Assembly (NCBI RefSeq): GCF_003387475.1
Contig: NZ_QUNO01000018.1
Coordinates: 62,001 to 126,000, forward strand
Direction of reading: 5' to 3'
DNA length: 64,000 nt
Source: Kutzneria buriramensis
GTDB taxonomy: Bacteria > Actinomycetota > Actinomycetes > Mycobacteriales > Pseudonocardiaceae
This document shows positions 42,866 to 64,000 of this stretch, piece by piece (position 1 is the stretch's first letter; every line of letters begins with the position of its first letter). Position numbers and translations under genes: made by a program. The notes beneath the pieces were generated by a model. It worked only from the letters and a program-made list of their open reading frames with translations, had not been told where the DNA came from and searched no databases.

Positions 42866-42870
42866 CCGAA

Positions 42871-43017
42871 CCCCCGCGAGTCGCGCTCTCGGACACACCG
42901 AATGCGCCTCTCGGGCACACCCCCGCGAGTCCCGCCCAGCGTCACACCGAAACACGGCTCCCGGCACACCCTCGCGAGTCGCGCCCAGCGCCAGACCGAA
43001 ATGCGGTTTCCGGCAGA
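42871..43017 (+). repeat. Three tandem copies of the 49-bp repeat
   Basis: Units at 42871-42919, 42920-42968 and 42969-43017 with an exact 49-nt period. Each begins CCC(C/T)CGCGAGTC and carries an ACCGAA core near position 27-32. The array starts 5 nt after the pafA stop. The units differ at many positions, so they are old duplicates. No spacers, so not a CRISPR array. Confidence 0.85.
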
Positions 43018-43037
43018 TCCGAGATCCCGGTCTCGGA

Positions 43038-43086
43038 TGTGCCTGAGAGCGTGTTTCGGTGTGCCTGAGAGCGCGACTCGCCGGGG
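43038..43086 (-). repeat. Inverted copy of the 49-bp repeat
   Basis: Reverse-complement copy facing the three tandem units. The whole 304-bp pafA-pafB gap is this repeat cluster plus about 80 bp of pafB promoter; no gene is seen. Confidence 0.85.
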
Positions 43087-61475: not shown

Positions 61476-62404
61476 CCGCCCCGTCCGAGGCGAGACCCGG
61501 CTTCCGGGTCTTCGCCGGCCGGTTCCGCACCGACCGCGCCGCCGTGTTCGGCGCGGTCGTGGCGGGCCTGCTGGTGCTGCTGGCGGTGTTCGCCCCCGTG
61601 CTGACCGCGATCGAGGGCCAGGACATCGCCTCGTTCCACAGCGACCTGGTCGACTCGGCGCGCGGCGGCGTGCCGCTCGGGCCGCTGGGCGGGATCAGCG
61701 GCCAGCACTGGCTCGGCGTGGAGCCGCAGACCGGCCGCGATCTGTTCGCCCGCATCGCCCAGGGTGCGCAGATCTCGTTGCTGGTGGCCGTGTGCGCGAC
61801 GGTGGTGCAGGTGTTCCTCGGCGTGACCGTGGGTCTGGCCGCCGGGTTGGGCAGCAAGCTGGTGGACACCGTGCTGACCCGGCTCGCCGACATCGCGCTG
61901 GCGTTCCCGGTCATCATCTTCTCGCTGGCGCTGCTGACCATCGTGCCGGACGCCTTCCCCCGGCCGCTGCTGCTGGCGCTGGTGATCGGCGTGCTCGGCT
62001 GGGGCGGCACGGCCCGCATCAGCAGGGCGCAGACGTTGTCCCTGCGCACCAGGGACTTCGTCGCCGCGGCCCGGCTGTCCGGCGCGGGCGGGTTCCGCAT
62101 CGCACGCCGGGAGATCCTGCCCGGGCTGGCCGCGCCGGTGATCACCTATGCGGCGTTGCTGCTGCCCACCAACGTGATCACCGAGGCGGCGCTGTCCTTC
62201 GTCGGCGTCGGCGTGCGGCCACCGACCTCGTCGTGGGGGCAGATGCTGTCCACGGCGACGACGTGGTTTCGCAGCGACGTGATGTACGTGCTGATCCCCG
62301 CGGTCATGGTGTTCCTCACCGTGCTCTCGTTCACGCTGGTGGGCGAGGGTGTGCGGGTGGCGCTCGACCCGCGGACCACGCGCCTGACCAGGAAGGCGGG
62401 CTGA
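61472..62404 (+). CDS. ABC importer permease, DppC/OppC type
   Basis: 310 residues and six membrane segments. The N-terminal RTDRAAVFGAVV region, a short periplasmic domain with HWLGVEPQTGRDLFARI, and the ATPase-coupling loop FVAAARLSGAGGFRIARREILPG identify the type-C subunit. GTG 61472 overlaps the SBP stop. It precedes the type-B permease, the reverse of the common B-C order. Confidence 0.93.
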   Translation: MTAPSEARPGFRVFAGRFRTDRAAVFGAVVAGLLVLLAVFAPVLTAIEGQDIASFHSDLVDSARGGVPLGPLGGISGQHWLGVEPQTGRDLFARIAQGAQISLLVAVCATVVQVFLGVTVGLAAGLGSKLVDTVLTRLADIALAFPVIIFSLALLTIVPDAFPRPLLLALVIGVLGWGGTARISRAQTLSLRTRDFVAAARLSGAGGFRIARREILPGLAAPVITYAALLLPTNVITEAALSFVGVGVRPPTSSWGQMLSTATTWFRSDVMYVLIPAVMVFLTVLSFTLVGEGVRVALDPRTTRLTRKAG

Positions 62405-62405
62405 G

Positions 62406-63398
62406 GTGCTCGGCTACGCGGTGCGCCGGGTCAGCGGCGCGGTGGCGGTGCTGCTGATCATGTCGGCGGTGGTGTACGTGCTGTTCTTCCTGATGCCGGC
62501 CAATCCGGCGCAGCTGGTGTGCGGGATCAAGGCGTGCACGCCCGACCGGCTGGCGCTGATCTCGCACAGCCTGGGCCTGGACGAGCCGCTCTACCTCCAG
62601 TACTGGCACTTCCTGGTCGGGCTGTTCGCCGGCCGGGACTACAGCACCGGACCGTCCATCGTGCACTGTGCGGCGCCGTGCCTGGGCTATTCCTTCCAGT
62701 ACACCGAGCCGGTGCTCCAGATCATCGGCGAGCGGCTGCCGGTGTCCGGCTCGCTGGTGATCGGCGCCGCGATTCTGTGGCTGTCGCTGGGCATCGGCAT
62801 CGGCGTGCTGTCGGCGCTGCGCCGCGGCCGGTGGCTGGACCACGTGGTGAACGCGATCGTGCTCGGCGGGCTGGCCGTGCCGATCTTCATCACCGGCCTG
62901 ATGGCGCTGATGATCGTCTGCGTCTGGTTGCAGTGGATGCCGTTCCCGACCTGGGTCCCGTTCGACGAGGATCCCGTGCTGTGGGCGCAGAACCTGGTCC
63001 TGCCGTGGATCGTGCTGGCGCTGACCACCATGCCGGTCTACGTCCGGATGTCCCGCGCCGGCATGCTGGAGACCCTGGCCGAGGACCACATCCGCACCGC
63101 CCGGGCGTACGGGCTGCCCGAGCGGCAGGTGATCGGCCGGCACGCGCTGCGCGGCGCGTTGAGCCCGCTGATCACGTTGGCGGCGCTGGACATCGCCGGC
63201 ATCCTCACCTCCTCGGTGCTCACCGAAACCGTGTTCGGCCTGCCCGGCCTCGGCCAGATGACCGTGCAGGCGGTGCGCAACGTCGACCTGCCCGTCGTGG
63301 TCGGGCTGGTGCTGCTGATCGGGTTCGTCATCGTGGTGTGCAACACGATCGCCGACCTGCTCTACGCGGCGGTCGACAAGAGGGTGAGCGTGCAGTGA
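62406..63398 (+). CDS. ABC importer permease, DppB/OppB type
   Basis: 330 residues. The N-terminal helix YAVRRVSGAVAVLLIMSAVV with FFLMPANPAQ is the type-B hallmark. The coupling loop reads HIRTARAYGLPERQVIGRHALRG, followed by ETVFGLPGLGQMTVQAV. A longer than usual exported loop (about 75-110) has two cysteines (HCAAPC). The GTG start is 1 nt after the previous stop. Its stop overlaps the first mini-ORF of the 77-bp repeat. Confidence 0.93.
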   Translation: MLGYAVRRVSGAVAVLLIMSAVVYVLFFLMPANPAQLVCGIKACTPDRLALISHSLGLDEPLYLQYWHFLVGLFAGRDYSTGPSIVHCAAPCLGYSFQYTEPVLQIIGERLPVSGSLVIGAAILWLSLGIGIGVLSALRRGRWLDHVVNAIVLGGLAVPIFITGLMALMIVCVWLQWMPFPTWVPFDEDPVLWAQNLVLPWIVLALTTMPVYVRMSRAGMLETLAEDHIRTARAYGLPERQVIGRHALRGALSPLITLAALDIAGILTSSVLTETVFGLPGLGQMTVQAVRNVDLPVVVGLVLLIGFVIVVCNTIADLLYAAVDKRVSVQ

Positions 63399-63548
63399 GC
63401 GAGCTTGTGAGCGAACCATTCAATGCTGAGCGTCCGCGAACGCGGACACCGGGCGCTGGCGAGGTGCCGCAGTGAGCGAGCTTGTGAGCGAACCATTCAA
63501 CGCTGAGCGTCCGCGAACGCGGACACCGAGCGCTAGCGAGGTGCCGCA
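63395..63548 (+). repeat. Two tandem 77-bp repeats, each a 26-codon mini-ORF
   Basis: Units 63395-63471 and 63472-63548 differ at only three bases. Each starts with GTG and reads SELVSEPFNAERPRTRTP then GAGEVPQ or SASEVPQ before TGA. Each stop overlaps the next start as GTGA: the permease stop with mini-ORF 1, mini-ORF 1 with mini-ORF 2, and mini-ORF 2 with the ATPase start. Each unit also has a 7-bp hairpin, GTCCGCG-AA-CGCGGAC. The insertion therefore keeps translational coupling through the operon. Whether the peptides are made is unknown. Confidence 0.85.
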
Positions 63549-64000
63549 GTGAGCGAATCCGTTGTGTCGGTGCGGGATCTGGTCATCGACTTCCACACCG
63601 AGGGCGACACCGTCCGCGCCGTCGACGGGTTGTCGTTCGACCTGGCGGCCGGGCGGGCGCTCGGCATCGTGGGGGAGTCGGGTTCCGGCAAGAGCGCGAC
63701 CGCGTTGTCCCTGCTGGGTCTGCACCGCGGCGGTAACGCGGACGTGACCGGCTCGATCGACGTGCTCGGCACGGATGTCCTTGCGGCGTCGAACGAACAG
63801 GTGCGGCAGCTGCGGGGCAACCGGATCGCCATGGTGTTCCAGGACCCGCTGTCCGCTCTGGACCCGTTCTTCAAGGTGGGCGACCAGATCGTCGAGGCCT
63901 ACCGCGCGCACAACAAGGTCGACCGCCGCGCCGCGCGCAAGCGGGCGATCGAGGTGCTGGACCGGGTCGGCATCCCCGACGCCGCACGGCGGGTCGACGC
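63549..64000 (+). CDS. ABC importer ATPase, DppD/OppD type, cut by window edge
   Basis: First 150 residues. Walker A GESGSGKSATALSLLGL lies near 42-58 and the Q-loop MVFQDPLSALDP near 95-106, as in peptide-type ATPases. Signature, Walker B and the C-terminal oligopeptide motif lie beyond the window. The GTG start is the first three bases of a partial third copy of the 77-bp repeat start and overlaps the stop of mini-ORF 2. Confidence 0.92.
   Translation, partial: MSESVVSVRDLVIDFHTEGDTVRAVDGLSFDLAAGRALGIVGESGSGKSATALSLLGLHRGGNADVTGSIDVLGTDVLAASNEQVRQLRGNRIAMVFQDPLSALDPFFKVGDQIVEAYRAHNKVDRRAARKRAIEVLDRVGIPDAARRVD

Follow-up and report, generated by a model that had tools for sequence, protein, structure and literature searches.

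Two probable copies of a MIRU-like insertion element at a GTGA gene junction of Kutzneria, with a hairpin base that covaries with the target

Why should two nearly identical short open frames stand in tandem between an ABC permease gene and an ABC ATPase gene, each fitted exactly to the overlap of a stop and a start codon? The window that raises this question is a stretch of 64,000 nucleotides from Kutzneria buriramensis, and all features given below lie on its forward (+) strand. According to Pfam, the neighbours of the array are a SBP_bac_5 protein, two BPD_transp_1 permeases and an ABC_tran ATPase. The adjoining permease gene (62406-63398) and the ATPase gene (63549-64000, continuing past the window end) are separated by units at 63395-63471 and 63472-63548 (TRF: period 77, score 309). 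The first-pass annotation had described two tandem 77-bp units of 97% identity; the two units stand, and the identity has to be lowered to 96.1% (74 of 77 positions, with mismatches at unit positions 30, 58 and 64). GTGA is found at all three junctions, between the permease stop and mini-ORF 1, between the two mini-ORFs, and between mini-ORF 2 and the ATPase start. As had been noted before, each mini-ORF consists of 26 codons plus TGA. Mini-ORF 1 (63395-63475; VSELVSEPFNAERPRTRTPGAGEVPQ) begins with a GTG that overlaps the permease stop, and mini-ORF 2 (63472-63552) begins with a GTG over the stop of mini-ORF 1 and ends with a TGA over the GTG of the ATPase. Judged by TRF, the unit comparison and the empty sites described below, the array with its flanking GTGA on each side covers 63395-63552; the inserted DNA is about 63399-63552, the exact register being blurred by the repeated TGA. 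Rfam gave no match within positions 62400-64000 of the window. Elsewhere, at 42870-43070, TRF showed a 49-bp imperfect tandem repeat in three copies; by eye, inverted matches to parts of its motif follow, which makes this a palindromic-looking repeat region.

The unit is dispersed through the genome of the window and its relatives. Searching for it in the host (G000, 11.97 Mb) gave 19 unit matches, and the other Kutzneria genomes gave 7 (G001), 17 (G002), 43 (G003), 44 (G004), 37 (G006) and, in the small G005, 1, so that seven of seven are positive. With at most two mismatches, the 5' pattern of the element occurs at 24 sites in G000, 48 in G003, 60 in G004 and 48 in G006; the reversed-pattern control gave 0. 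Because the unit recurs across its own genome, at 24 sites against none for the control, the window repeat is not a product of chance. For closer study, about 95 places were fetched from six Kutzneria genomes (mostly best-scoring matches, hence a non-random sample), yielding 97 arrays with 130 units. Single copies make up 77 of the 97 arrays, and the other 20 have two to four units. Copy number can differ between species at one junction, for instance 3 against 1 at L053/L103.

Insertion falls precisely on an RTGA in which stop and start codons overlap, or on a start codon with A after it, and follows the orientation of the genes. The joined flanks of 12 loci of G003 were searched in the genus, and for 11 of them uninterrupted matches were found, in 34 sequences. 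Gene is joined directly to gene by RTGA in 32 of the 34; the other two, both at L067, read ATGG in two relatives. The twelfth locus, L062, had spanning matches of lower identity only. At the junction of the window, two units are present in the window genome, one each in G003 and G004, and none in G001, G002 and G006, which read a direct GTGA as the first-pass annotation had supposed for the ancestral overlap of permease and ATPase; G007 and G052, from the neighbouring genus, read ATGA. Presence at the same junction is thus patchy between species. Two junctions carry different subfamilies in different species (L077 against L019/L043/L058/L105, and L085 against L066), which points to independent insertions. 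The start-codon R is variable among empty sites, and at two loci it differs between the filled site and the empties (G against A in four of four at L063, A against G in three of three at L061). Two empty sites in G004 (L345 and L365) have GTGC(A/C)GCAGTGA just before the downstream gene. This stretch resembles the 3' end of the element and is possibly the remnant (deletion scar) of a lost copy, or possibly reflects a target preference.

The reading frames on either side fit the same picture. Upstream, 77 of 97 arrays have the frame that ends at the 5' TGA (frame 0) open over 60 codons or more, compared with 28 and 65 for the other frames. Downstream, where the count was limited to the 81 arrays with a 77-nt last unit ending at RTGA, the expected frame is open over the same length in 78, compared with 0 and 54. 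The offset to the RTGA with the longest following frame is 2 mod 3 in 88 arrays, takes another value in 6, and is absent in 3. Since high-GC DNA leaves one wrong frame open, these counts are supportive rather than decisive; the empty sites are decisive. Taken with the dispersed copies, they bear out the suggestion that this is a mobile or expanding repeat shaped to GTGA-type junctions. It is neither unique to one locus nor constant in copy number (2, 1, 1 and 0 at the window junction), and its empty sites are RTGA stop/start overlaps, not intergenic places unrelated to GTGA.

Each unit has a hairpin near either end, and the 5' hairpin includes the target. In the window, the 5' hairpins lie at 63395-63416 (unit 1, R1 = G63395, Y22 = C63416) and 63472-63493 (unit 2, R1 = G63472, Y22 = C63493), as assigned by RNAalifold, pair counts and covariation. 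The pairs in alignment A1 are R1-Y22, T2-A21, G5-C18, C6-G17, G9-C14 and C10-G13, with tandem G.A steps between them; in both window units, T replaces the family's C at position 14 and turns this pair into a G-T wobble. The 3' hairpin is built around GAGC-loop-GCGA. That of unit 1 (GCGGACACC..GGTGCCGC, 63442-63470) was placed by the pairing statistics of the family and by unit comparison, and its GA-GC loop region departs from the family sequence (G at positions 58 and 64; A in unit 2). That of unit 2 (GCGGACACC-GAGC-GCTA-GCGA-GGTGCCGC, 63519-63547) was placed by the same statistics and the minimum-energy fold, and adjoins the downstream GTGA. A Shine-Dalgarno-like GAGG lies inside the element at 63538-63541, 7 nt before the ATPase GTG, with its counterpart in unit 1 at 63461-63464. 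This GAGG before the 3' RTGA is near-invariant in the unit alignment.

Of five hairpin pair measures, three lie above every one of 500 shuffles and two above 498 of them; sliding by one column lowers the pairing from 93% to 17-19%. At stem positions 3-5 of the 3' hairpin, 90, 60 and 74% of units pair, compared with 69, 34 and 43% when permuted (171 distinct hairpins, selected by their GA core). The loops of these hairpins are G(N)NA in 120 of 171 and of the RNA GNRA type (GCAA) in 1 of 171; d(cGNNAg) is a stable DNA loop motif. DNA folding energies of five sequences were not better than those of shuffles (z from -1.2 to +0.5), a comparison made with nearest-neighbour tools that may undervalue tandem G.A. 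In minimum-energy folds, the 5' hairpin is absent from both window units, and the 3' hairpin is present in unit 2 and L058 and absent from unit 1. The case for the structure is therefore made by covariation, given that folding energies are unexceptional and the full 5' hairpin is missing from the folds of the window units.

Covariation links R1, a base of the start codon, to Y22, a base of the element. Outside Kutzneria, in units found with a pattern that left R unconstrained and required C or T at Y, the R1-Y22 counts are AT 59, GC 41, GT 3, AC 2 and TT 1, so that 100 of the 106 units are matched (on the table of A/G by T/C, Fisher p 4e-23, for units that are related by descent and not independent). 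Pattern loci within Kutzneria give AT 16, GC 12, GT 3 and AC 0, and the fetched Kutzneria units AT 47, GC 60, GT 10 and AC 5. For first units among 267 distinct units, a set that takes in model-found loci and is biased slightly towards the pair, the counts are AT 109, GC 97, GT 7, AC 5 and TT 1. The wider genome scan covered at least 119 stretches among the matches listed, sorted under 23 genus labels, and both matched types (AT and GC) are present among those matches in 10 of the 23. Pairs of subfamily A units with no more than two other differences have Y in common in 98 cases and differ at Y in 75, and in 48 of these 75 R and Y are swapped jointly. Subfamily B has kept C22, and all of its first units stand at GTGA (20 of 20, orthologues between species included).

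The simplest common reading of both subfamilies is that the element has to match its target at insertion, and that source copies with C and with T have both been active in subfamily A. A Y22 copied from R at insertion is disfavoured, as subfamily B keeps C22 and is found at GTGA only. The pairing may instead have been restored after insertion, against which stand six tandem units that retain a G-T pair. The differing R of filled and empty sites at L061 and L063 speaks against a match required at insertion, so that conversion or later selection may also lie behind it. What the covariation itself suggests is that the element, folded as a single strand, would read its target through base pairing, with R1-Y22 as a putative guide step.

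The mini-ORF keeps its frame and shows no such constraint on its residues. Units whose 3' hairpin can be recognised number 182, internal and last ones pooled: 155 stay open with a length of 2 mod 3 and 19 with one of 0 mod 3, a premature stop is seen in 2, a length of 1 mod 3 in 1, and 5 are without RTGA. The idea that a length of 77 nt fits the stop/start overlap extends to the family, in which lengths are mainly 77 and also 74, 80, 71 or 83 nt, all keeping the ORF; internal units of 78 nt fuse the ORFs in frame. In arrays such as L032, L033, L034, L036 and L053, internal units are spaced at 78 nt with GCGC-RTGA joints, and the last unit ends in CAGTGA. Synonymous and non-synonymous changes number 58:126 in subfamily A (61 units) and 37:91 in subfamily B (21 units), where 0.28:0.70 and 0.29:0.69 are expected without selection. 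Stops account for 0 of the 312 classified changes in the two subfamilies, compared with an expected 2% or so. In our reading, the kept feature would be the passage of ribosomes and not the peptide.

We consider it quite probable that a MIRU-like insertion element, non-autonomous and present here twice, makes up the array; it sits at RTGA, and its length and open frame leave a mini-ORF that closes on the downstream start. Ribosomes finishing the upstream gene, or using the original ribosome-binding site of the downstream gene, would translate the mini-ORF and then re-start at the downstream gene, aided by the element's own GAGG. With translation and re-start combined, an insertion would be nearly harmless. 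Growth to two to four units would come later, by unequal recombination or slippage; in L032, units 2-4 have G-T at R1-Y22 and unit 1 has A-T, as a tandem duplication would give. With lower confidence, we suggest that movement takes place in a folded, single-stranded form, that pairing of Y22 with R in the target RTGA closes the 5' hairpin, whereby the target would be recognised partly by base pairing, as in IS200/IS605, and that the mobilising enzyme is something other than a Y1 transposase. A broader proposal, which we make tentatively and think less probable than not, is that a family of miniature elements exists across the actinobacteria in which the start-codon base R1 pairs with Y22 (in a hairpin with tandem G.A and GNNA-type loops), thereby choosing ATGA or GTGA stop/start overlaps as places to insert, and which moves as a folded single strand with a non-Y1 enzyme; MIRUs may share this machinery.

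Other explanations account for parts of these data. Slippage that duplicated a unit on the spot, without any mobile element, would yield what the window shows, namely tandem units in register with three differences, but it covers just the step from one copy to two. The dispersed copies already contradict it, as do the predominance of single-copy arrays (77 of 97) and the clean empty sites at other junctions, and we regard it as hardly credible. Only slightly better placed is the idea that the mini-ORFs encode a family of functional small proteins. A kept frame and the lack of stops among classified changes are what it would predict, but the ratio of synonymous to non-synonymous changes is what the absence of selection would give, so that frame and openness matter while the residues give no sign. 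We have rejected a peptide function for the mini-ORF on these substitutions, and find the small-protein reading very improbable.

An RNA-level regulator (a coupler or attenuator) maintained by selection is a more serious alternative, in which the hairpins and the R-Y pair act in the mRNA by hiding or exposing the start codon. Its presence would then be hard to square with the patchiness across species at the same junction, its loops are mostly of the G(N)NA kind that is stable in DNA and almost never of the RNA GNRA type, and near-identical units are free to differ at R and Y. On the other side, the start codon does lie within the paired 5' hairpin and the GAGG inside the 3' hairpin, and for Actinobacteria there is a proposal of leader genes that work through re-initiation (PMC4833913). 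As an explanation of the family we judge it improbable, and the element may still have a role in the mRNA after insertion. The insertion element remains our preferred reading, and the main points of the earlier interpretation are supported by the data, with translation of the mini-ORF predicted. What that annotation missed is that the design is already known as the MIRU and that the paired hairpins include the target base.

The family extends well beyond Kutzneria. Within the order, a covariance model (R1, built from 43 diverse units) picked up the element in 89 of 200 genomes, spread over 31 of 61 genera; about 23 candidates were scored per genome, so that copy numbers are lower bounds. In the plasmid and phage collections, a 167-bp query had no match at E 1e-5. 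No transposase that would mark an autonomous version was recognised between element ends in the surroundings of six places, read from the 57 that fail the 3'-hairpin pattern (a group that includes ordinary units with an altered hairpin, such as L140 and L227). A variant that keeps the 5' hairpin and has a different 3' half (TCATGC...GCATGA) was seen at L120, L125, L129, L152, L180, L185, L205 and L210, in Kibdelosporangium, Rhodococcus and Amycolatopsis. Its internal TCATGC is complementary to the 3' GCATGA, resembling a second guide, and at L205 it lies, by eye, between ABC-type permease-like and ATPase-like frames. In Phytohabitans flavus, three near-identical longer repeats with the 5' hairpin pattern (L128, L131 and L179) share their end flanks and are possibly another element that carries this pattern.

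If its mini-ORF can pass ribosomes across, such an element could spread without breaking operons. A soil genus with many insertions and exact empty sites, an RTGA target rule and a covarying base shared between element and target together make the mechanism testable. The element is also a natural portable cassette for putting DNA into operons, possibly without breaking translation.

How does this family relate to known systems? Elements of the IS200/IS605 group, in the sections on target recognition of two sources (PMC6006769, PMC8266576), have subterminal hairpins, a target tetranucleotide at the left end and an equivalent one closing the right end, and read the target through base interactions with a guide. 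Like these elements, and like REP sequences mobilised by TnpA-REP (RAYT), as far as those sections describe them, our element has imperfect hairpins at both ends, here identified by covariation with unexceptional folding energy. It differs from the IS200/IS605 arrangement described there in that the pairing base, Y22, stands at the 3' foot of the hairpin, whereas in IS200/IS605 a tetranucleotide lies 5' of the foot. It differs from both groups in that no Y1 (HUH) transposase was found in this genome and no association with one was seen across the order. A PF01797 search gave no match in G000 or in five of the six other Kutzneria genomes, and one fragment in G002; the element is present in 11 of 25 Y1-bearing genomes compared with 78 of 175 others (overlap of the lists counted by hand). 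A Y1 transposase recognisable as PF01797 was therefore rejected as the mobiliser, near-absent as it is in Kutzneria and with no association in 200 genomes, though a divergent Y1 would escape the model.

The leader genes proposed for Actinobacteria are short ORFs just before a gene, proposed to raise its translation by re-initiation; in the portion of that study describing them, they are predictions, most frequent at 10-11 bp before the gene (PMC4833913). Our element, unlike these, is repeated in dispersed copies and has an overlap of 4 nt. The text matches to 'miru' shown for the genome paper of Kutzneria albida (PMC4210621) are the species name mirum. Searches of the open-licence literature found no paper with sequence strings of the element, its family or a base-pair match to the target; strings of the MIRU core gave no paper either, and 'DTGA' was absent among the matches listed.

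To our knowledge, the movement of MIRUs (mycobacterial interspersed repetitive units) has stayed unexplained since their first description, though they are widely used for typing, as in tuberculosis. DTGA sites were reportedly proposed for them by Supply et al. in 1997. In the genus of Mycobacterium sp. AZCC_0083, a putative MIRU core picked out such units in 49 of 96 genomes, and we examined 10 loci that we take to be MIRUs by this core and by their RTGA units of 50-54 nt. There, RTGA stands on either side of 14 of the 16 units found, at 50-54 nt, which does not apply to the other 2, and the mini-ORF terminates on the second RTGA in 10 of the 14. Could our element descend from one actinobacterial family together with the mycobacterial MIRUs, as a divergent branch of it and hence a MIRU in the true sense? 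This would be compatible with the insertion element favoured above, and the size class, the RTGA site and the coupling are alike, as is a GA-GC-GNA-GC-GA hairpin core before the 3' RTGA. In sequence, however, this core is all that the two have in common. Model R1 gave four weak matches in the 10 loci (best E 0.31), by eye neither the 5' hairpin nor R-Y22 pairing was seen in their units, and the 5' pattern of our element occurs in 8 of 98 Mycobacterium-genus genomes, mostly as short forms at coding starts in those read. Common descent is possible and, in our judgement, somewhat unlikely, and from the non-recognition by R1, the differing 5' ends, the sharing of the core only and the rarity in that genus we call the element MIRU-like and not a MIRU. 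At the mycobacterial L325, L326, L331 and L332, the 5' hairpin alone is repeated with 30-bp spacing, seemingly as an in-frame N-terminus of the downstream gene.

In its design the element closely follows the MIRU. Both are short dispersed repeats with many copies at gene junctions, both have an internal mini-ORF that overlaps the upstream stop and the downstream start (RTGA), both sit at start codons or where stop and start overlap (here with empty sites to show it), and both vary in tandem copy number (here between species); the sequence and the 5' end differ, with no homology found by model R1. According to the relevant passage of a 2025 review, MIRUs appear mobile, insert at start codons and have an internal ORF coupled at -4 nt (PMC12548453), and the MIRUs of senX3-regX3 are described, in the parts of two papers devoted to them, as tandem units of 77 bp (also 53 bp) with variable copy number at the gene junction (PMC4213456, PMC9392950). 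Because MIRUs have been described in such like terms (77 bp, start-codon insertion, -4 coupling), the concept is already known; what is new here is that R, a start-codon base belonging to the target, covaries with Y22 of the element and so closes a hairpin.
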